Positions 3,628-14,606 of a stretch of 32,474 nucleotides of DNA are shown in pieces. Position 1 is the first letter of the stretch. Each line of letters starts with the position of its first letter. The stretch comes from Candidatus Zipacnadia bacterium (lineage in GTDB: Bacteria; Armatimonadota; Zipacnadia; Zipacnadales; UBA5352), in contig JALGVE010000008.1 in the NCBI GenBank assembly GCA_029820045.1, positions 1-32,474 of the forward strand. The letters are read 5' to 3'. A model generated the notes under the pieces. That model was not told the DNA's origin and searched no databases. It worked only from the letters and a program-made list of their open reading frames with translations. The position numbers were made by a program, and so were the translations under genes.

Positions 3628-4092
3628 ATGCTCAGGTTGACCCAGAGAACAGAGGACGGCGGGTTGCAGTTCTGCGACGACATTCCGCCGGGGCTTGAAC
3701 TCCTGCGTAGTGGCCGCCACGCCCTGCTCGTAGCCACCAGCCCCGAAGTAAGGGTGGACGGGCAGCCGGTGGCGTCACTGGGAGGCATCACTGTGGTCGG
3801 TGTCGGCACGGAGATATGCTCGAACGGCGACCGTTTCTACCTCGTGAAAGCGCCGCCCACGGTTGTCGAGGAGGGACCCCAGGACGCCATCTGCCCCCTG
3901 TGCCGAAACGCGATCGCCGGCAAGCCTGCCGTCCAGTGCCCTGAGACCAGCCGCTGGTACCATCAGACAGATGAGTTCCCGTGCTGGGATACCGCGCACC
4001 CCCAAGAACCCGCGAGTGGCGGTAGCTCACAGGCGGGCGAGCACGACGGCGATCAGCCGGGCCCGCTGCATCCGTGGGAGGTGTCGAGGTGA
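3628..4092 (+). CDS. Prok-RING-like protein (candidate E3/adaptor) with an FHA/beta-rich-looking N-terminus
   Basis: 'CPLCRNAIAGKPAVQCPETSRWYHQTDEFPCWD' resembles bacterial RING-like treble clefs (CPxC...VxCPxC..WHH...PCW) but lacks some ligands; RBS AAAGGAGAGG upstream; 4-nt overlap (GTGA) with the next gene. Confidence 0.6.
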   Translation: MLRLTQRTEDGGLQFCDDIPPGLELLRSGRHALLVATSPEVRVDGQPVASLGGITVVGVGTEICSNGDRFYLVKAPPTVVEEGPQDAICPLCRNAIAGKPAVQCPETSRWYHQTDEFPCWDTAHPQEPASGGSSQAGEHDGDQPGPLHPWEVSR

Positions 4093-5249
4093 ACCTCACG
4101 TCGGAGACCTTCGACAGCCTGGCCCAGACCTCCTGGTATGAGCATGATGTGCTCGCGGGCGCCACCGTCGGGCTGGTTGGCGTGGGCGGCATCGGCGCAC
4201 CCGGCGCAGTGCAGCTCGCCCGTCTCGGGGTAGGGCGTCTCGTGCTGATGGACCCGGACATCTGCGAGCCGTCCAACTTGAGCAGGACCTTCGTCCGATC
4301 CGACCTTGGTAAGTACAAGGTCCACGCGGTCAGGGATGAGATCGCTCGCTGCGGGCTGGGCACCGAGGTCCTCGCCCTGCCTGGCGATGTTGCTTACGAC
4401 CTGTCGTGGGGCATGGTCTCACGGCTCGACCTGGTGGTCGGGGCGCTGGACAATCGCGCCGCCCGCGTGGCGCTCAGCAGGGCCGCCTGGCGCGCCGGTG
4501 TACCCCTCGTGGATACCGCGCAAGATGGGGAGAGCCTGACGGCGCTCGCGCGCGTCTTCCTGCCCTCTGGCACGGGCGCATGTTATCAGTGTGGGCTCTC
4601 CGCAGCCGACTACAGGTACATCGGCCGCAACGTCCCGTGCACGAGGGAGGACCCTGAGGTCCCGCGACTGCCGACCACCGGCCTGGAGGCTGGGGTGGCG
4701 GCTGCGCTGCTCGCGAGCCTCACCGCGCGCGTGCTGTTGGAGGGCCCGGAGACTGTCGCTGGCATGGAGTATCGCATCAGTCTCGGCGACTACAGCTTCA
4801 TGACCACGCGGCTCCAGCGGAATGCAGCCTGCCGCTTCGACCATCGCACGTGGCCCGGCGAGGCCGCGACCCTGGCCGCGCCGGCGCCCGTCGGTCGCAT
4901 GACGCTGGGGGAGATCGCGGACTTCCTTCGGACCGAGTTGGGGGAAGGCTTCAGCCTCCACCTTGACCGCGACGTGGTCACGGACCTCGCCTGTCCCGAA
5001 TGTGGGCATGTCAATCGTGGGATAGCGGCCCGCAGGAGTGACACCGTCCACTGCGAGCGCTGTGACGAGGCAATATCGCCGCCGCCGACGGCACTGCGCA
5101 GCACATTCACCGAGGACGAGTTGCGCGGCCCCGAGTTCGCGCAGAGGACCTTTGAGCGCGTGCTGCCCGACGGTCATGTCGCGTGGGCGGAGCGCGGGGG
5201 CGAGCACACTATGATCAGTTTCACCTTCGAGGAGGGAAAGCCATGGTAG
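4089..5249 (+). CDS. ThiF/MoeB/E1-like ubiquitin-activating enzyme family protein with C-terminal zinc ribbon
   Basis: Nucleotide-binding GVGGIG (4179-4196), 'LMDPDICEPSNLSRTFVRSDLGKYKVHAVRDEI', 'DLVVGALDNRAARVALSRAAWRAGVPLVD', CYQC, candidate catalytic Cys in 'NVPCTRED...LPTTGLEAGVAAALLA', and CPEC-x17-CERC ribbon; likely GTG start at 4089 overlapping the upstream stop. Confidence 0.9.
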   Translation: MNLTSETFDSLAQTSWYEHDVLAGATVGLVGVGGIGAPGAVQLARLGVGRLVLMDPDICEPSNLSRTFVRSDLGKYKVHAVRDEIARCGLGTEVLALPGDVAYDLSWGMVSRLDLVVGALDNRAARVALSRAAWRAGVPLVDTAQDGESLTALARVFLPSGTGACYQCGLSAADYRYIGRNVPCTREDPEVPRLPTTGLEAGVAAALLASLTARVLLEGPETVAGMEYRISLGDYSFMTTRLQRNAACRFDHRTWPGEAATLAAPAPVGRMTLGEIADFLRTELGEGFSLHLDRDVVTDLACPECGHVNRGIAARRSDTVHCERCDEAISPPPTALRSTFTEDELRGPEFAQRTFERVLPDGHVAWAERGGEHTMISFTFEEGKPW

Positions 5250-5746
5250 ACGCGATCCGGGAGGCGCGACTCCGCAATGAGAGGGCGAACCTGCTCCGCA
5301 TGAGGAATCCGCGTCTTCACCTTCAGCCTGCCGAGACGCTCGATCGTTACCTGCTCGCGCTCGACGTCAAGACCCTCGTGGCAAGCGATGGCGGCAGCCC
5401 TGAAGTCTTCGATGGGCCATGCCTGGTGGAGATGTTCTTTGGCGCCAACTACCCGGTTTCCGACCCGCCGATCTTCCTCGTGCATGCGCCGCGCGACCTC
5501 TTCCATCCGAACGCCAAGCGCGGAGAACATCAGTTGTTCTGCCTCGGCGACCTCACCGAGCAAAGGGCAGACGTGATCGTCGCTGCCATCGCCGGCAGCC
5601 TCAGCTATCACGATAACCTCTACAGCATGGACGAGCGCGACGCCTTCAACATTGAGGCCGCCCGCTGGGCGCGCGAGCATCAGGACCTGCTGCCGGTGGA
5701 CCCGCGCCCCTTCGCGGGCAACGTTGAGGACGACACCGCCGAATAG
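5243..5746 (+). CDS. E2-like (UBC-fold) ubiquitin-conjugating enzyme family protein
   Basis: 'YPVSDPPIFLVHAPRDLFHPNAKRGEHQLFCLGDL': E2-type YP..PP..., HPN (residues 88-90) and candidate catalytic Cys100 in FCLGD; C-terminal 'NLYSMDERDAFNIEAARWARE'; ATG at 5243 overlaps the E1 stop, RBS GGAGGGAAAG. Confidence 0.85.
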   Translation: MVDAIREARLRNERANLLRMRNPRLHLQPAETLDRYLLALDVKTLVASDGGSPEVFDGPCLVEMFFGANYPVSDPPIFLVHAPRDLFHPNAKRGEHQLFCLGDLTEQRADVIVAAIAGSLSYHDNLYSMDERDAFNIEAARWAREHQDLLPVDPRPFAGNVEDDTAE

Positions 5747-5758
5747 GAGTGTTGGGAC

Positions 5759-6547
5759 ATGGATCGTCAGGAGCTTATCACCGCAATCCAGGACGCTGGT
5801 GCAGCGCGCGACCTTGAGCTCGCCATCAGCGGGGAATGGCTCCGGATCTCGGCGCCCGCGGACGAAGCCACTGCCGGCCTCTCGAGCGAGGAGCTGCTGA
5901 GGGAGCACCCGCTCTCGGGCCTCGGCAAGTACTGGAGAGACTTCACTGGCCAGACGACCCGGCTCGTGGCCCAGGTGCCGCTGGAGGTGCTGCTGGCGAC
6001 CCCAGCGTTGGTCAACGGCCTGCCCGGTCTCGCCGAGGCGCTATCTCCGGAGGCGGTGGGCGGGACCGAGGTCCCCGCGGACCCGCTGGAACTCGCAACG
6101 ATGGCGCTGGAGGAGGCGGGGCTAACCGTCATCAGCTCGACCGACACGGCGGTCGTCGGCCGGGCGGACCAACTCTCGTGGCGGGCGGAGGTTGAGATGT
6201 CAGTCGGCGATGACGAGCTCTCGGTCTGGTGCCCGCTCGCGGGCTGGCCGTCGGCCGACGGGGCCCAGGGCGGGGACCGGGTCGCGGCCATCTGGCTATT
6301 GAGTCTTGGGCGCACGGTGCGGCTGGTCGCGCCGGCGCTCAGGGACGTAGAGGGTTCAGGGCAGCAGGAGCTGCAGTGCGGGTGGTCGCTCGCGGCGCCC
6401 TTGTGGGGCCTGTCACTCCCGCTCGCAGGCCACGCGGCTGCGGCGGCCGCCGCAGGCGCGCTTCGCTTCAACGTTGAAGCCCGGGCTATCCTCCAGGATG
6501 CGTCCGTGGCCGAAGCCCTGAGCCGTGCCTACGAGACTGCTGCATAG
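5759..6547 (+). CDS. hypothetical protein of unknown family in the Ub-like operon
   Basis: Open frame between E2 and Ubl genes, 12 nt after the E2 stop, with RBS TAGGAGTG; no family recognised by eye. Confidence 0.75.
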   Translation: MDRQELITAIQDAGAARDLELAISGEWLRISAPADEATAGLSSEELLREHPLSGLGKYWRDFTGQTTRLVAQVPLEVLLATPALVNGLPGLAEALSPEAVGGTEVPADPLELATMALEEAGLTVISSTDTAVVGRADQLSWRAEVEMSVGDDELSVWCPLAGWPSADGAQGGDRVAAIWLLSLGRTVRLVAPALRDVEGSGQQELQCGWSLAAPLWGLSLPLAGHAAAAAAAGALRFNVEARAILQDASVAEALSRAYETAA

Positions 6548-6563
6548 AAAGGAGGTGGCTAGA

Positions 6564-6842
6564 TTGAGCCAGGACAGCGTCACCATCACGGTCCAGGACG
6601 TGACCGGCGAAAAGGAACACATCGTCGCTTACGGCGCGGACCGCACGATCGGCGAACTGGTGGAGGACCCTCGGGTTCTTCAGGAGGTGGACCTCGCGCC
6701 GGTGGGCTCCGGCACGGCCGGAGTAACCTACGGCGCCCGGAGAGAACGAGACGAGATCCTGTTGAACACCGACGACAAACTCGGGGACGTGCTCAAAGAT
6801 GGTGAATCCGTGAGGCTGCTCCCGCAGATCGTCGCAGGATAA
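6564..6842 (+). CDS. small ubiquitin-like (beta-grasp-like) protein ending in C-terminal Gly
   Basis: TTG start at 6564 preceded by AAAGGAGG (6548-6554); 92 aa 'MSQDSVTITVQDVTGEKEHIVAYGADRTIGELVED...EILLNTDDKLGDVLKDGESVRLLPQIVAG*'; size, 'D.LGDVLKDGE.VRLLP' C-terminus and neighbourhood fit a Ubl; fold not verified. Confidence 0.72.
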   Translation: MSQDSVTITVQDVTGEKEHIVAYGADRTIGELVEDPRVLQEVDLAPVGSGTAGVTYGARRERDEILLNTDDKLGDVLKDGESVRLLPQIVAG

Positions 6843-6906: not shown

Positions 6907-7929
6907 ATGGTAAGCCCGCAATACGATCTGATAGCCACGTTCCAGAAGGCGGACAGCGACGAGCTGGCCCACGCCGAGGTCCTTCAGGAGCAGCACGTGA
7001 AGCGCTTCGTCGAGGACGCCCACTTCGGGGCCATCCGCCGCGGCGTCGCTCCTAACGATGGTGAGCCAGTCTTCGGGACCGTAGCTCCTCTGGGCGTGTG
7101 CGAGGCGCAGTGCGAGACCTGCAACCGCTTGTGTGGCTTCCAGGTCCACCTGAGCGACTCCTCTGGAAAGCTGCTCACACACAACACGTATCCCACGGAG
7201 CTGCTTCAGAGCTGGGCGAACCTCGTCGTCGCCGCCCTCGCCCAACGCGATGGGGAGGGCGGTGGGAAGCCTCAGCCGGCTCGCTACCTTTACAGTCTGA
7301 TAGCCCGCCGCTGCGACGAGTTAGGGCCGGTGCTTGGCGCCGTCAGGAGCTGCCTGCGCCAGATACCCGTGGAGGAGCTGCCGGCGGGCGCAGTGACCAG
7401 TCCCGATGATGCTGACTTTCCGCTCCACATTGAGCCGGTGGCGATTGGGAACATGCTCGCCTGGGCGCGCGAAGCTGGTAACGAGGAGGTCGGCGGTCTA
7501 GTGGCCGGCCGCCTGCGCTGGTGTCCCCGCCGCCGCGACGTGTGGGCTCACATTGACCATGCGGTGCGCGCGCCGGCCATCGGCGGCAGGGCAACGCTGG
7601 AGTTCACTCCCCAGGCTTGGAACGCGGCACTCAGCGAACTCAATAAGCTAGGCAACGGCCTGGACGTACTCGGCTGGTGGCATTCACACCCCGCCGGGAT
7701 CTTCGAGGATGAGCCTGATCTGCAGGGCGCCTCCAAACTCTTTCTCTCGCATCGGGACATGCCCATCGCAACCGAGCACTTCTCTACGCCCTGGCAGACC
7801 TCGTGGGTCGTAGACCCCGAGTTAGACGACGAAGAGGCGGTCGCGGCTTTCGGCTGGGCCTCGGGGGTCATCACTCCGCGCGCCTTCGACGTGGTGTCCG
7901 CAGCCGTCGCCAGCCAAGGAGCGAGTTAA
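6907..7929 (+). CDS. JAB/JAMM (MPN) domain metalloprotease with N-terminal Cys cluster; candidate deubiquitinase-like enzyme
   Basis: 'EEVGGLVAGRL...DVLGWWHSHPAGIFEDEPDL' JAMM-type Glu and H-x-H-P (7681-7689) plus Asp; 'CEAQCETCNRLC' at 7099-7133; RBS GGAGGAGG upstream. Confidence 0.85.
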   Translation: MVSPQYDLIATFQKADSDELAHAEVLQEQHVKRFVEDAHFGAIRRGVAPNDGEPVFGTVAPLGVCEAQCETCNRLCGFQVHLSDSSGKLLTHNTYPTELLQSWANLVVAALAQRDGEGGGKPQPARYLYSLIARRCDELGPVLGAVRSCLRQIPVEELPAGAVTSPDDADFPLHIEPVAIGNMLAWAREAGNEEVGGLVAGRLRWCPRRRDVWAHIDHAVRAPAIGGRATLEFTPQAWNAALSELNKLGNGLDVLGWWHSHPAGIFEDEPDLQGASKLFLSHRDMPIATEHFSTPWQTSWVVDPELDDEEAVAAFGWASGVITPRAFDVVSAAVASQGAS

Positions 7930-8015: not shown

Positions 8016-8073
8016 GAGCCGAGCGTATGAACTAATGCAGGAGCGCACACCGCGAAGCCAGGAGGTGCCATCC

Positions 8074-9780
8074 ATGCCGATAGATGAGCAACTCGAGAGC
8101 GTCTTTCAGACCGTGTGGGGCATGTATAGGGACAGAAGCACACGTGGTGAGGGAGTGGCCTTCATCCAAGGGCTGGACGGCTTGCTCAACGCCGAGCAGC
8201 TCGCCTACGTGAAGGTGCGCCTCTGGGAGCGCATCGGCGAGCTTGAGCAGGCCACACGCGAGCTGAACACCGTCGTAACCGAGCAGGCCGAACTGCTCGA
8301 GGAGGCCACCAAGCCGCCACTGCTGAGAGGCATGGTCCTCGCTGAGCCCCGGGACAACCTCGTGCTCGTCGCGGTCGGCTCGCGCCGATTCGAGGTCGAG
8401 GTCGGCGACCGCTTCGACGCCCAGCTCACACCGGGTCGTGAAGTCGTCCTGACCGGGGAGGGCACGGCGATCGTTGATATCCGCGACATGTGGACCGGCG
8501 GGGAGGTAGGGACGCTCGACAGCGTGCTGCCCGACCAGCGCCTGGTGGTGGGAGACCACACCTCGAAGATTGTGCTCAACCCCATCGCGGCGCTGCGCGG
8601 ACTGGAGTTGGAGGCCGGCCAGCCCGTCAGATACGATCGCACGCATGGTCTGGCCTTCGAGGTCATGCCCCAGGATGAGACGCAGCAGAAGTCGGTGTAC
8701 AGCCTCGAGGACGACATTGACTATCGGGCAGCCGAGGTGATCGCCGGGCTCGATAGCCAGATGCGGGAAGTGACGGACCTCATCAATCTGAGCCTCCGAG
8801 GGGACCTGGTCAACGCCTACGAGATCGAGCAAGACAAAGGCTGCATACTCTGGGGCCCTCCCGGCTGCGGCAAGACCCTGCTGGTGCGCGCTGTGCTCGC
8901 CAAACTGAAGGCAGAGACCGATCTCGATCCCCTCATGTTGCTCGTACCGCCCTCCGGGCTGCAGATAATGTGGGTCGGCGAAGGTCCCAGAAAGACCCGC
9001 GAGCTCTTCGATGCCGCCCGTCGCGAAGCGAAGAAGGGGAGATTGGTTACGATCGTGATGGACGAGCTCGAGTGGCTCAGTGCCAGGACGGGGCGACGGG
9101 GCATGGACGGCGGCGCTCGGGCGACGGACAACCTGGTACAGGCCGTGTGTCACGAGATTGATGGCATGAGGGCGTTACCCAACGTCTTCATCATCGGCAC
9201 CACCAATCGCTACGACATGCTCGACACTGCCTTCACTCGCCCGGGTCGCCTGGGCACGCCGATACTGGTCCCACGGCCCAACGCCACGGCTGCGCGGGCG
9301 ATCTTCCTCAGCCACCTGCGTAACACGCCGATCCGCCTGAACGGCAAGGTGGAGGCCGGCACCGAGGTCGCGAGCGAGCTTGTGGATGACATCATCCCCG
9401 CTCTCTATTCGCCTGAGTCATCCGAGGCCAAGGTCGTCAACGTTGTCTACCGCGACGGCCGCAACGTCACGCACCGCGTCCCGGACTTCCTGTCCGGCGC
9501 GCACATCGAGGACTGGGTCAAGCGTGCCAAGCGCCGGGCCTGCTTGAGAGATACTTACGCCGGAGAGACCGCGCCCTCCGGCGTCACCCGCGAAGACCTG
9601 CATGAGGCCATTGACCAGCGCCTCGATGAACTCGCCGAGACCATCTCGCCGGCCAACCTTCCCGACCACCTGGGCCATTACGACGACCCCGAGGCGCGCA
9701 TCGAGATCGTGTCAGTGACCTCTGCGCGCCCGAAGGTCCGGATTCACAGGTACGTGGAGCCTGAGGGGCTGCCGGTGTGA
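8074..9780 (+). CDS. AAA+ ATPase of the Mpa/ARC proteasomal-ATPase type (coiled coil, OB-like, AAA)
   Basis: Short N-terminal coiled-coil region, OB-like segment, Walker A GPPGCGKT (8854-8877), pore-loop-like 'IMWVGEGPRKTRELFDAAR', Walker B 'TIVMDE', 'NVFIIGTTNRYDMLDTAFTRPGRL'; ATG at 8074 with GGAGGT. Confidence 0.85.
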   Translation: MPIDEQLESVFQTVWGMYRDRSTRGEGVAFIQGLDGLLNAEQLAYVKVRLWERIGELEQATRELNTVVTEQAELLEEATKPPLLRGMVLAEPRDNLVLVAVGSRRFEVEVGDRFDAQLTPGREVVLTGEGTAIVDIRDMWTGGEVGTLDSVLPDQRLVVGDHTSKIVLNPIAALRGLELEAGQPVRYDRTHGLAFEVMPQDETQQKSVYSLEDDIDYRAAEVIAGLDSQMREVTDLINLSLRGDLVNAYEIEQDKGCILWGPPGCGKTLLVRAVLAKLKAETDLDPLMLLVPPSGLQIMWVGEGPRKTRELFDAARREAKKGRLVTIVMDELEWLSARTGRRGMDGGARATDNLVQAVCHEIDGMRALPNVFIIGTTNRYDMLDTAFTRPGRLGTPILVPRPNATAARAIFLSHLRNTPIRLNGKVEAGTEVASELVDDIIPALYSPESSEAKVVNVVYRDGRNVTHRVPDFLSGAHIEDWVKRAKRRACLRDTYAGETAPSGVTREDLHEAIDQRLDELAETISPANLPDHLGHYDDPEARIEIVSVTSARPKVRIHRYVEPEGLPV

Positions 9781-9811: not shown

Positions 9812-11506
9812 ATGAAGCTTCTGCCCAAGATCGTAGGCTGGGAGAGTGAGCTACCCGCCATCACGCTCGCGGATGTCCCTGTCGCCGATTCCTTCGCCAC
9901 CCACAGCATTATTGCCGCTTGTCCCCTGCGCCCTACGGCAGCGGACGGTCATCCTCTGCCTGTACGCTCACACCGCGGAGAGTTCCTGGTCAATGGCTGC
10001 AGGCTCTACCCAGAGAACGAGCAGGGCCTGCTGGAGATATCAACTCACGAGCAACTCTCCGCCCGAGGGGCGGCCGCAAGCCTGCTCGCCGGCTTCCATG
10101 TGGTCAACCAGTCCCGCCGCCTCGCTGAGGAAGCTGGCGACGGCGAATTTGAGATCGAGGTCCTGGTCTCGTCGGCCAACGAGCTTAGTAGCTGGGGCGG
10201 GCACCTCAATCTGCTGCTCTCGCGCGAGACCTTCGACGACATGTTCGGCGCTCGCCAGCACCTTCTGTTCCAGTTGCTGATCCCGTTCCTGGCGACCGCC
10301 CCTACTCTCTTTGGCTTCGGCGATCTCATCGAGCAGCCCGACGGCAAGGTCCGCTTCGTGCCCAGCTCCAGGGCCGGCTTCTTCGGAGACCTGATGCATC
10401 ACGGCACCACTCAGGGGCGCCGGCGCCCGATCGTCAACCTGCGTGATGAGGCTCTCGCCGATAAGTTGCACTTCGCGCGGCTGCACACCATCAGCCTCGA
10501 CCCGAGCATGAGCCCGTGGGCGGCGTGGGTGAAGTTCGGCGCCATGCAGCTCGTCGGCCTGGCCCTTGAGATGCGCCTGGCGCCCCAGAACCTCATCCTG
10601 GACAACCCGGTCGCGGCCATCAAGGTCGCGGGTTCTGACTGCTCCCTCACCCGGAAGGTCCGCCTGGCCTCGGGAGACTCGGTTACTCCGCTGCAGGTGC
10701 AGAGAACCATCGCCGAGTTCATCCGCGACCGCATCGTGGAACCCGGCGACGCTGAGCCCTACGTGCCCGAGGCGGAGGCCATTGTCACCGCGTGGCTCGA
10801 GACCCTGGACGCAATGGCTCAGGACCCGGCTCTCGCTGGCCGCCGAGTTGACTGGGTCACGAAGAAGCTGCTGCTGGAGCATGCTATGGACGAAGGCGAC
10901 GGCACAGACTGGGATGACGAGGAGATCAAATACCTCGCTCTCATGTACGGCAGCGTGGATTTCAAGGCTAACCCCTTCTTCGATGGTCGGGCCAGTTTCA
11001 TCCCTGCCGCAGGCGCCGAACGCGTCGTCACCGTGCGAGAGGTCGCTGCGCTCGTGAATGAGCCGCCGCCCGACACACGCGCCTGGGTGCGTGGGCGGAT
11101 CCTGCGCCGCTTCCCTGACATCACCAGCGCCGACTGGCACCGCATCAAGTTCCGCTCCAAGGGGCGCCAATGGGGCGGGCAGGAAATCGAACTCTCGCAC
11201 CCGTACCGGCTGAACGAGGAGACGTGTGGCGAGGTGGTGGAGAACGGAACGCTGGAGGAGATTGCCGACCACGTTGAGGGTGTCTGCTGGGAGCCTGGGG
11301 CCAGTGTGCGGCGGGTCGGAACCGGCGCGTCCACGCGAGCTGTGACTAAGCGCAAGGCGGAGGCGAAGCACGATGCCGATCGCGGCGGTCAGGGCCAGTC
11401 GAAACGCCAACAGTCAGGCGCCCGCGGAGAATCACACGGACAGCGCGCTCACGCGGCGCCCAGATCGGTCGCCGTCTCCACCACTGAAGAGCGCGAGGAT
11501 GAATAA
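9812..11506 (+). CDS. divergent Dop/PafA-family protein (Pup deamidase/ligase paralog) with low-complexity C-terminal tail
   Basis: 'IVGWESELPAI' (cf. GxETEY), 'FLVNGCRLY...LEISTHE', 'SSWGGHLNLL', 'PIVNLRDEALADKLHFARLHTISLDPSMSPWAAWVKFGAMQLVGLALE' align by eye with Dop/PafA 'INTRDEPHAD...RLHVIVGDANMSE...LKVGTTALVL'; RBS AAGGAGG. Confidence 0.8.
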   Translation: MKLLPKIVGWESELPAITLADVPVADSFATHSIIAACPLRPTAADGHPLPVRSHRGEFLVNGCRLYPENEQGLLEISTHEQLSARGAAASLLAGFHVVNQSRRLAEEAGDGEFEIEVLVSSANELSSWGGHLNLLLSRETFDDMFGARQHLLFQLLIPFLATAPTLFGFGDLIEQPDGKVRFVPSSRAGFFGDLMHHGTTQGRRRPIVNLRDEALADKLHFARLHTISLDPSMSPWAAWVKFGAMQLVGLALEMRLAPQNLILDNPVAAIKVAGSDCSLTRKVRLASGDSVTPLQVQRTIAEFIRDRIVEPGDAEPYVPEAEAIVTAWLETLDAMAQDPALAGRRVDWVTKKLLLEHAMDEGDGTDWDDEEIKYLALMYGSVDFKANPFFDGRASFIPAAGAERVVTVREVAALVNEPPPDTRAWVRGRILRRFPDITSADWHRIKFRSKGRQWGGQEIELSHPYRLNEETCGEVVENGTLEEIADHVEGVCWEPGASVRRVGTGASTRAVTKRKAEAKHDADRGGQGQSKRQQSGARGESHGQRAHAAPRSVAVSTTEEREDE

Positions 11507-11605
11507 TCGCGCAGATTGGGCCGTCCCTTGCTCGAAATGCTCACCGCTGACGTATAGCTAGACGGTTAAGGTGCCACGAAAAGCAAGGAAGAGGGAGTGA
11601 CGAAC

Positions 11606-11806
11606 ATGCAGAGGCAGATAGAGAGGTATCGGCCGGCTCCGGTGCATGATCCTGAGGGCGACGGTGACCTGGCGGGGTCGCGTGCGCAGCGGGTTCGAAC
11701 TCAGGGACGCGAGGCCGCGCAGAAAGCCAAGGAGATTACGGAGAAGGCCATGGGCCGCACCGGGCGTCTGCTGGACGCCATGCGGCGCCAACGAGGAGGG
11801 CAATGA
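11606..11806 (+). CDS. pup: Pup/UBact-like modifier protein, 66 aa, C-terminal Gly-Gly-Gln
   Basis: MQRQIERYRPAPVHDPEGDGDLAGSRAQRVRTQGREAAQKAKEITEKAMGRTGRLLDAMRRQRGGQ; small, charged, ends GGQ, and immediately precedes a PafA/Dop homolog; RBS GAGGGAG. Confidence 0.85.
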   Translation: MQRQIERYRPAPVHDPEGDGDLAGSRAQRVRTQGREAAQKAKEITEKAMGRTGRLLDAMRRQRGGQ

Positions 11807-11807
11807 G

Positions 11808-13370
11808 ATGGCGCTGGTGATGGGCTCGGAGACCGAGTACGCCGTCTGTTCGCCGCACGGGGCAGGCTCCTCATCGCGGGCACTCGAGGGCCTCATGTGC
11901 GAGGTGCGCAGCCAGAACGTCGTTGCGCCCCAGGAGGCCAGGTTTGACTACTTCCTGGCCTCGGGCGGTCGCATCTACGTGGACACGGGCAGTCACGTTG
12001 AGTACGCCAGCCCGGAGTGCGCCAGCCCGCTGGACCTCGTGCGCTGGGAGAAGGCGGGCGAACTCATCCTCGGCGCCGCCGCGGACCGCGTACTCGGCCC
12101 GTCTCCTGAGGACCCCAAGCTCCTTCTGGTCAAGAACAATACGATGCCCGGCAGGTACACGGGACAGAGCTGGGGCTGCCACTCGAACTACGGCCTACAC
12201 CGAGCCCCCACCGACGCAGAACGTGAGCTGATAATCCCTCACCTGGTCACGCGCACGATATACTCCGGCGCCGGCCGCGTGTCCTTTGGCGCGGGCGGCA
12301 GCGGATACGAACTCTCTCAGCGTGCCGCGTTCATCAGTTCCACGACGGGCTCAGATACTACTGGCGGCTCCCGCGCCCTCTACAACACCCGCGACGAGCC
12401 CCTGGCGAGCGGTACCCACCACCGGGCCCACATCATCTGCGGCGATTCGCTGCGCAGCCACCTGGGGATCTTCCTCAAGATCGGGACGACGGCCCTGCTG
12501 TTCGCGCTCGTCACCCGGCGTCCCGAGTTGATTGACCGCCGCAAGGTCATCTTGAAGCACCCGGTCTCCGCCTTCAGGGGCGCCAGCTTTGACATCAGGG
12601 GAAAGGCCCACTGCACCCTCGCCTCCGGCGGCCCCCGGCTGGCTCGCACCATCCAGTACGCCTATCTGCGGGCAGCCGAGAGCTTCGTGGACGCCGAGCC
12701 CAATCCCCCATCGTGGATGGCGGACGTGCTGAAGTACTGGGACATGATCCTCACCCGACATCGGCAGGGACCTCAGGCGCTCAATACCTGTCTGGACGCC
12801 TACATCAAGCACAACCTGCTGACGCAGATACTGGAGGAGAACGACTTCTCGTGGAGCCAGTTGTGCGAGTGGGCTAACGTGGCCGAGGAGCTGTCCAGCT
12901 ACGCTGTCGAGTCAGAACCGATCGAGGTGCCGCAGTGCGGCGCTGCTGTCGTGCGCCGGTACCTGGGGGCCGTGTTGACGGCCGAGGTATGGACGCAGGT
13001 CCAGGCTCTCATGGCCCAACAGGGCCTGGCCTGGGAAGAACTCCCGCACGCATTCTCGGTCTACCGGCAAGTCATCGCTGCCGACATCGCCTATCATGCG
13101 GTGGGCGAGGGCAATCTCTTTGACGAGCTGGATAAGGCGGGCCTGCTGGAGCACCGCCTGCTCAGCGATGAGGAGATTCGGTTCGCGGTCACCAACCCGC
13201 CGTCGGACACGCGCGCCTCCCTACGAGGCGCGATGATCCGCCGAACCGCGGGGCACTGCGAGGTCTACTGGACCTTTGTTGAGAGCAATGACAGCCGTGT
13301 CGAACTCCCGGATCCGCTGCAGAGCAGCTTCACGAGGTCAGGGCAAAGGGAACTCACAATGGGCTTCTGA
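11808..13370 (+). CDS. PafA/Dop family protein (Pup ligase or Pup deamidase/depupylase)
   Basis: 'GSETEYAV', 'RIYVDTGSHVEYASPECASPLDLVRWEKAGE', 'VKNNTMPGRYTGQSWGCHSNYGLHR', 'LYNTRDEPLASGTHHRAHIICGDSLRSHLGIFLKIGTTALL'; starts 2 nt after the pup stop. Ligase versus deamidase assignment not made. Confidence 0.92.
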   Translation: MALVMGSETEYAVCSPHGAGSSSRALEGLMCEVRSQNVVAPQEARFDYFLASGGRIYVDTGSHVEYASPECASPLDLVRWEKAGELILGAAADRVLGPSPEDPKLLLVKNNTMPGRYTGQSWGCHSNYGLHRAPTDAERELIIPHLVTRTIYSGAGRVSFGAGGSGYELSQRAAFISSTTGSDTTGGSRALYNTRDEPLASGTHHRAHIICGDSLRSHLGIFLKIGTTALLFALVTRRPELIDRRKVILKHPVSAFRGASFDIRGKAHCTLASGGPRLARTIQYAYLRAAESFVDAEPNPPSWMADVLKYWDMILTRHRQGPQALNTCLDAYIKHNLLTQILEENDFSWSQLCEWANVAEELSSYAVESEPIEVPQCGAAVVRRYLGAVLTAEVWTQVQALMAQQGLAWEELPHAFSVYRQVIAADIAYHAVGEGNLFDELDKAGLLEHRLLSDEEIRFAVTNPPSDTRASLRGAMIRRTAGHCEVYWTFVESNDSRVELPDPLQSSFTRSGQRELTMGF

Positions 13371-13400
13371 ACTCGACGCCCTTGATCGGTGGGACGAAAG

Positions 13401-14606
13401 ATGAGCGATCGCCAGGACCTGGGCTTTGAAATGTCGCGACAACTCTACGATGCCCTCGTTGACAGCGGGGCGAAGGTCGGGTGCGTCTCCGAGAACGAGG
13501 TGCTCCTTAAGGACGTCCGCGTTGATGAGGGCTCCTTCAGTCAGGATCGCACCACCGTGCTCATTGACCTGAGCAGCGCCGAAGCACCGGTGGTGTTCGT
13601 GGATAAGACGCTACGCTATCGCGGGGATGACGACCAGGTCACCGAGGTATTGCGCGGCGAGAGGCACGGGCCCTGGCGTCGCCTGAAGCTGCCCGAGGGT
13701 GCGGCGGGCGAGGACTTCGACCGGCTGGTTCGAGAGGTGCTGCGGCTGCTGGGCTTCCCTGAGGACGCGGGCCACGAGCCCTCGCACTGGCTGACCTGGT
13801 CAGAGGCGGCCCGCAGGCGCGACCTCATCGTCGCTGCCCCTCAACTGCCGCCGGTTGTGCATCGCGAGGCTGAGATCGAGCGCCTGGCCGATGTGCTGAG
13901 CCGTCGCGACTGCCGCGCGGTGGCTCTCGTAGGTCTCCCCGGTTCGGGCCGTCGCAGCATCGTCGTCGGGCTGGCCCAGGCCATCGCCGGCCTGCGCAAC
14001 CCCGCCGCTGTCGCACACCTCACGCCCGTTGAGATTGATGCTCGTCTCGCGGAAGCCACGATCCTCTTCGGCGACCAGATCTCCCAGCCTCAGGGTGAGC
14101 CCAGCGCGGGGGGAGCAGGCCGGGAAGCGCAGGTGTCCGCTCCGCCCCCCCCTGCCGTAGGCAGCGCCCGCCCCCAGACCTTTGCGGTGCACCTGGGCAG
14201 AGGGGAGCCGGGCCGCATCTTCGTGCTTGATCCCCGCCAAGCAGAGGCGATGACCAGCATTTGGCCGGACGCTCCGCTTGAGGTCACGCGCATCACGGTT
14301 GAACCTGCCGACCGCACCACTGCGCGCAAGATGCTGGCCGCCAACGTCCCGGCTCTACAGGCCCACCACGGTTTGTCCATCTCCGGCGCCATGATCGCCA
14401 GGGCCGTTCGCATGGCGAGCCTGTGGGTGGAGGGCGCCCTTCCCGGCTCCGCGGTGAAGCTCCTGGACGAGGCTTGCAGCCGTGCCCGACGCTCGCGTTC
14501 AGACGGGAGCGGCGAGCCTCGGCTTCTGCTCTCCGATCTCGTCGGCGTTGCGGAGCAGTACGCCGACAGCTCGGCTGTGTGGCACGAGATCTACAAGAGA
14601 GACTAG
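13401..14606 (+). CDS. Clp-like AAA+ protein with degenerate Walker A/B motifs (candidate pseudo-ATPase)
   Basis: 'VALVGLPGSGRRSIVVGLAQAIA' aligns with ClpA/B 'LLGEPGVGKTAIVEGLAQRI'; 'ATILFGDQ' sits where ILFIDE would be; 'HHGLSISGAMIARAVRMASLWVEGALPGSAVKLLDEACSRAR' resembles ClpA/B D1. Confidence 0.7.
   Translation: MSDRQDLGFEMSRQLYDALVDSGAKVGCVSENEVLLKDVRVDEGSFSQDRTTVLIDLSSAEAPVVFVDKTLRYRGDDDQVTEVLRGERHGPWRRLKLPEGAAGEDFDRLVREVLRLLGFPEDAGHEPSHWLTWSEAARRRDLIVAAPQLPPVVHREAEIERLADVLSRRDCRAVALVGLPGSGRRSIVVGLAQAIAGLRNPAAVAHLTPVEIDARLAEATILFGDQISQPQGEPSAGGAGREAQVSAPPPPAVGSARPQTFAVHLGRGEPGRIFVLDPRQAEAMTSIWPDAPLEVTRITVEPADRTTARKMLAANVPALQAHHGLSISGAMIARAVRMASLWVEGALPGSAVKLLDEACSRARRSRSDGSGEPRLLLSDLVGVAEQYADSSAVWHEIYKRD

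Follow-up and report, generated by a model that had tools for sequence, protein, structure and literature searches.

A conserved, horizontally scattered bacterial operon joining a Pup-type modifier and PafA/Dop homologs to a ubiquitin-like conjugation module

Gene content of the locus

The window, by which we mean the entire stretch of 32,474 nucleotides analyzed here, contains between positions 3628 and 13370 an unbroken, one-strand run of ten genes in the order FHA/RING, E1, E2, an uncharacterized protein, Ubl, JAB, Mpa-like AAA, Dop-like, Pup and PafA-like, with no 20S proteasome gene within the run. The individual features are:

3628..4092, + strand: protein with an FHA-like N-terminus and a RING/treble-clef zinc finger, candidate E3 (pattern CPLC...CP..HH-like...C)
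4074..5249, + strand: E1-like adenylating enzyme (PF00899 ThiF, E=4.3e-29; present in all complete loci)
5183..5746, + strand: predicted E2 (UBC fold) with an HPN...Cys motif, probable start near 5219 (motif, model and profile)
5759..6547, + strand: conserved protein, tentatively two YbjN or type III chaperone-like domains (same position in all complete loci)
6525..6842, + strand: ubiquitin-like modifier ending in ...PQIVAG (HMM family; inferred beta-grasp fold)
6907..7929, + strand: JAB/JAMM protease, candidate Ubl deconjugase (PF14464, E=2.6e-6; metal-site E, HxH and S..D retained)
8035..9780, + strand: Mpa/ARC-like AAA ATPase without a C-terminal GQYL (TIGR03689 pup_AAA, E=5.1e-73; C-terminus ...VEPEGLPV)
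9812..11506, + strand: Dop1, Dop-class PafA/Dop homolog, candidate deamidase/depupylase (PF03136, E=2.8e-64; in the window copy, Glu stands in for the catalytic Asp)
11606..11806, + strand: Pup-type modifier precursor, 66 residues, ending in RRQRGGQ (slot and C-terminus kept in 15/15 loci; family profile leads to Pup)
11808..13370, + strand: PafA2, PafA-class candidate Pup ligase (PF03136, E=7.3e-87; PafA-type signature YVDTGSHVEYASPEC; short beta1-beta2 gap)

A preliminary description had drawn attention to the 66-residue ORF with its RRQRGGQ end and to its position beside PafA/Dop homologs. This is confirmed, both neighbors being PF03136 proteins; what that description missed is the upstream reach of the operon into a full E1/E2/RING/Ubl/JAB system. 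Directly downstream of PafA2 lies an ORF (13389-14606) encoding the N-terminal AAA half of a ClpA/ClpB-like protein, which was considered as a member of the operon and rejected because a counterpart is absent from the other loci. Elsewhere in the window, two prepilin-like genes with a common start motif are found on the minus strand (107-793 and 933-1766).

Conservation and distribution of the operon

A Dop1 search in the phylum of the window separated six loci, scoring 470-960 bits, from a remainder at 271 bits or less. These six are the window and loci in genomes G052, G050, G102, G262 and G112, and three of the six genomes also possess a separate canonical UBact locus. A scan of genome contigs with the window Dop1 alone recovered no relatives, because the window copy is the most divergent one. 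The GTDB genomes were scanned with a six-row Dop1 alignment, and this added loci from, at least, Gemmatimonadetes, Acidobacteria, Verrucomicrobia, Deltaproteobacteria (Myxococcota), Planctomycetota and Omnitrophota, the list of loci being a lower bound.

With HMMs for the ten components, the gene order was found to be kept across at least six phyla, wherever a locus is long enough to contain all the genes. The ten-gene order, at about 30% identity, is seen in the window and in L031, L072, L084, L086, L087, L090, L091, L092, L100 and L154; partial copies are present in L030, L073, L085, L088, L089, L093 and L194. An all-against-all comparison of the flanking ORFs uncovered no common flanking genes save one unrelated pair. 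A chimeric assembly was rejected as an explanation, given that the order is repeated in independent genomes and on long contigs (304 kb for L090 and 462 kb for L092). The operon is conserved and horizontally scattered, and its strict gene order over large divergence, taken together with the lack of any conserved flanking gene, suggests one functional unit; a joint operon is in itself no proof of joint function. We found no description of an operon combining Pup/PafA with E1/E2 in the literature searched, which covered subscription papers only in part, and an earlier description is possible.

The ubiquitin-like half of the operon

In the RING protein the Cys/His pattern CPRC..CPxC..HH..C..CxxC is kept in 12 loci; the window copy shows no clear final C-x2-C pair, and the sole Pfam match is a weak one to Prok-RING_1 (E=0.059). 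The N-terminal part, as judged by eye from a VNGxP..G..L.D.DEI pattern, appears FHA-like. The E2 has an HPN motif and a Cys that are invariant among nine aligned members, and its profile matched a PDB E2 with E=6.9e-4. An AF2 model of the representative from L084 reached a pLDDT of 92, with all the Foldseek matches seen being E2s, and on this model the operon E2 is predicted to adopt the UBC fold. The model of the protein encoded at 5759..6547 had a pLDDT of 74, and its Foldseek matches, to YbjN and to secretion-chaperone folds, had E>0.01. The Ubl family displays an AG at or near the C-terminus (AG, or AG with a short tail) that is invariant in 14 loci, and the window member (6525..6842) has no Pfam match.

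The operon hence combines ThiF, a UBC-fold E2 with HPN and Cys, an AG-ended Ubl and JAB, the set that characterizes Bil/Bub-type systems; PADLOC gave domain-level E1-E2, JAB and AAA hits only. A survey of 292 genomes of the phylum found the operon type of E2 in six (G000, G050, where the gene is cut by the contig end, G052, G102, G262 and G268). A looser class of E2s belongs to Bub-like operons without PafA (L195, L196, L198, L199 and L202), which are frequent in the phylum and contain an E2, a trypsin/HtrA-like protein, Ubl, E1, JAB, RING and sometimes a second E2.

The AAA ATPase and the search for a 20S core

The actinobacterial and Nitrospira Mpa proteins terminate in G[QH]Y[LF], an end that is lacking in the AAA proteins of the operon. 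This absence is only suggestive, because UBact-type Mpas encoded next to 20S genes are also without GQYL. In G050, an operon carrier that is 99% complete, the sole PF00227 protein is HslV, adjoining HslU. No PF00227 member other than HslV was found in 13 of the 18 carrier genomes, the completeness of which is mostly not established, and in the window genome HslV alone was found, which at 60% completeness of the assembly is not decisive. Four of the 18 carriers have a 20S-type hit elsewhere (G052, G102 and G112 at separate UBact loci, G294 with one non-HslV match), and in these four cross-use of a 20S core is possible; a weak fragment was seen in G295.

The small modifier

The modifier ORF runs from an ATG at 11606-11608 to CAA (Gln) at 11801-11803, followed by TGA at 11804-11806; an in-frame GTG at 11597 offers an alternative start, with a product of 69 residues. 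The stop precedes the PafA2 ATG (11808) by one base, and the codons CGA GGA GGG CAA (11792-11803, Arg-Gly-Gly-Gln) include an AGGAGG just 5' of that start, which is likely to be the ribosome-binding site of PafA2 and to couple the translation of the two genes.

The window protein yielded no Pfam or NCBIfam match, even with E up to 10, and this includes the Pup model PF05639; the earlier remark that it diverges from actinobacterial Pup apart from GGQ is thus borne out. A leave-one-out family HMM placed it at E=0.32, third among 262 window ORFs. It is the most aberrant member of its family, unrecognizable alone, and is identified by where it lies, its length, its start motif and its QxGGQ end.

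The family as a whole is more informative. Ten of the 15 related loci that possess both Dop1 and PafA2 have, in the slot, a short ORF terminating in Gln, and the remaining five have one terminating in Glu; it lies between these two genes in every complete locus. The C-terminus is mostly GG[QE], GGQ in the case of the window, and the distance to the PafA2 start is at most 60 nt in 13 of the 15 (the slot ORFs of L092 and L073 were read manually). The consensus of 13 members is MxTRER...AIxRxLSxDSExFLxxxRQxGGQ, with the Gln four residues before the end being invariant. Three of the 13 match PF05639 below the cut-off (best E=0.002; the Pup of G052 scores 15.1 bits against a cut-off of 27). Searched against the PDB, the 13-member profile (A7) found mycobacterial Pup as its top match (E=0.0035), aligned along IDDVLEENAEDFVRAYVQKGGQ, with two designed helical proteins also under E=1. 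It is at the level of this family profile, and not of the window protein alone, that the C-terminal half shows homology to known Pups. Of the findings that the preliminary description named as refuting it, one was made, in that the window protein matches no Pup or UBact model, and one was contradicted, a C-terminal Gln or Glu being present in every ortholog.

That description had left the choice between Pup and UBact open. A UBact-type modifier, like that found in canonical proteasome loci elsewhere in the phylum, might be expected in view of the commonness of such loci there, their shared Mpa-Dop-modifier-PafA gene set, and the QQSGE end of the operon Pup in G102, which comes near the QRSGE of UBact. 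However, neither the window protein nor the other family members match the UBact models PF20513 and NF033388, whereas control UBacts of the same phylum, which end in RQRSG[QE], match PF20513 with E=2e-22. Moreover, the family profile scores 35 canonical Pups at 7.6 to 24.9 bits and nine UBacts at no more than 2.1 bits, so that all Pups stand above all UBacts, and the UBact loci carry 20S genes and sit elsewhere in the same genomes. The profile evidence largely refutes the UBact identity, which we regard as very improbable, and argues for a Pup-type family. Even harder to credit is that the ORF arose by chance, with GGQ as a side effect of the ribosome-binding site that serves PafA2. The AGGAGG just before the PafA2 start and the lack of a profile match for the window protein alone would fit such an origin, but a Shine-Dalgarno sequence cannot explain a terminal Gln or Glu, nor the constancy of the Gln four positions ahead of it, and both residues are kept in orthologs whose codons at this place are without AGGAGG.

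The Dop1 and PafA2 enzymes

In a quick tree with long branches, Dop1 (hybDop1, support 99) and PafA2 (hybPafA2, on one side of a branch with support 97) each constitute a single group outside the canonical Dop and PafA. The two differ in signature and in the gap before strand 2, which corresponds to the Dop-loop: Dop1 orthologs combine YIDxxHxE (D-x-x-H) with a long gap, and PafA2 proteins combine YxDxGxHPE (D-x-G-x-H) with a short one, those of L087 and L154 being exceptional in this comparison. The gap spans 55-107 residues in the Dop1 orthologs, 71-83 in canonical Dop, 42-59 in PafA2 and 52 in the window Dop1. By alignment, the PafA motifs GhExE, strand-2 Asp, HxN and Hx4D are all present in 11808-13370. 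The score against the PafA equivalog model TIGR03686, 230 bits, misses the cut-off of 551, and by the standard of that model PafA2 is a distant relative rather than an ortholog. Some PafA2 proteins bear a C-terminal TPR-like extension of about 150 residues (L031 850-2901, L072 8911-10956). This deep-branching pair could furnish outgroups for the split between ligase and deamidase.

The window Dop1 retains GhExE, HxN, Hx4D and the Arg residues. At the catalytic Asp, where 15 of 16 aligned members have YID, it reads YPEN, within a motif YPENEQG that places Glu at the equivalent of Asp94, contains a 2-residue insertion and has lost NSDG. In Dop, the most likely function of D94 is to activate the water used for hydrolysis (PMC8599861). 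The GGQ end had led to the prediction of an active deamidase among the neighboring genes, and this prediction fares better for the family than for the window. The upstream gene is Dop-class by the signature and the Dop-loop length of its orthologs, and 10 of the 15 modifiers end in Gln; against it, Dop1 is kept where Pup is already Glu-ended, and the window copy is altered as above. For the family, the GGQ end speaks in favor of a deamidase; in the window the prediction is uncertain because the catalytic Asp is missing (YID to YPE), and this Dop1 may be slow, altered or inactive.

Variant and reduced loci

A divergent variant of the operon was found in the taxonomic order to which the window belongs (L208, G022:C13, 7328-16326; L039, G026:C440; L209, G023:C89). 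It has E1, E2, Ubl, JAB, RING, AAA and two Dop/PafA homologs with no Pup ORF between them, and in L208 the latter two overlap by 4 nt. A reduced locus, L074 (G112:C14, 7452-12124), contains one Dop1-type and two PafA2-type genes; Pup, AAA and Ubl genes are absent nearby.

A proposed proteasome-free tagging module

We think it probable that the 3' half of the operon encodes a pupylation module independent of the proteasome, with the 66-residue protein as its modifier, and that the 5' half specifies a RING-type ubiquitin-like conjugation system, a single AAA unfoldase serving both. With enzymatic roles assigned by homology, the steps would be as follows: 1) The Dop-class enzyme would convert PupQ to PupE, and would also take Pup off. 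2) Using ATP, PafA2 would activate PupE at its C-terminal gamma-carboxylate and couple it to lysines of the targets. 3) Separately, the E1, the E2 and the FHA/RING protein would attach the AG-ended Ubl to targets. 4) The JAB protein would remove or trim the Ubl. 5) The Mpa-like AAA ring would bind the tagged proteins and unfold or pull them apart, without hand-over to a 20S core.

Other divisions of labor between the two halves deserve consideration. The Ubl pathway might be the real work of the operon, with the PafA/Dop homologs modifying the Ubl system, for instance through a gamma-glutamyl linkage to the Ubl or to E1/E2, and the small ORF acting as a cofactor-like peptide. The variant loci L208 and L039, which keep both halves without the intervening Pup ORF, and the altered active site of the window Dop1 lend this some plausibility. 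The main family, in contrast, keeps the Gln- or Glu-ended ORF with its Pup-like C-terminal signature at all 15 loci and in at least six phyla, and a Pup could be encoded elsewhere in the variant genomes; we consider this alternative unlikely. We would give still less credence to two independent tagging systems that share an operon in the style of a defense island, acting on separate sets of targets without crosstalk. That the Ubl half can stand alone is clear from the frequent Bub-like E1/E2/Ubl/JAB/RING operons without PafA, and L074 has Dop1 and two PafA2 copies without the Ubl half; yet the order is strict over large divergence with no conserved flanking genes, and a single AAA ATPase lies between the halves.

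Returning to the pupylation module with a shared AAA unfoldase, a further step, which we put forward only tentatively, is that the two chemically different tags, the gamma-glutamyl-linked Pup and the Ubl conjugated through E1, E2 and RING, might form one circuit, acting on targets that are shared or interlinked and perhaps yielding mixed Pup-Ubl conjugates, with one proteasome-free AAA reader. Pupylation and ubiquitin-like tagging are regarded as separate, convergent inventions, and an operon holding both tags would offer the first direct opportunity to find out whether bacteria combine them. It also allows one to ask whether tagging and unfolding without a 20S core is general or a quirk of Corynebacterium.

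Comparison with known systems

With the actinobacterial Pup-proteasome (Pup/PafA/Dop/Mpa/20S) the operon shares a Pup-type modifier with a helix-rich C-terminus and a GG[QE] end, PafA- and Dop-class enzymes and an Mpa-like AAA ATPase. It differs in having no 20S core genes and no GQYL on the AAA protein, in the deep, separate clades formed by its PafA and Dop, and in their being joined to an E1/E2/RING/Ubl/JAB module. The UBact system likewise has a modifier beside Dop, PafA and Mpa in gram-negative phyla, including that of the window, but UBact ends in RQRSG[QE], matches PF20513 and is accompanied by 20S genes. Bil/Bub-type operons resemble the 5' half in bringing together E1, E2, Ubl and JAB (and RING) in one operon; in the Bub-like operons of the phylum, in contrast, Pup, PafA, Dop and Mpa are absent.

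Pup loci lacking proteasome genes have been reported in Plesiocystis and Rhodopirellula (Iyer 2008, PMC2588565). These provide an example of Pup and PafA outside Actinobacteria without linked 20S genes, but their ligases have four transmembrane segments and adjoin a membrane protein gene, and no E1/E2 was reported for them. The best mechanistic precedent comes from C. glutamicum, where ferritin is tagged with Pup and unfolded in the absence of a 20S proteasome (PMC8223512), a combination of Pup tagging with an AAA unfoldase as proposed here; the C. glutamicum locus differs in being without a ubiquitin-like module, and its Pup is an ordinary actinobacterial one.
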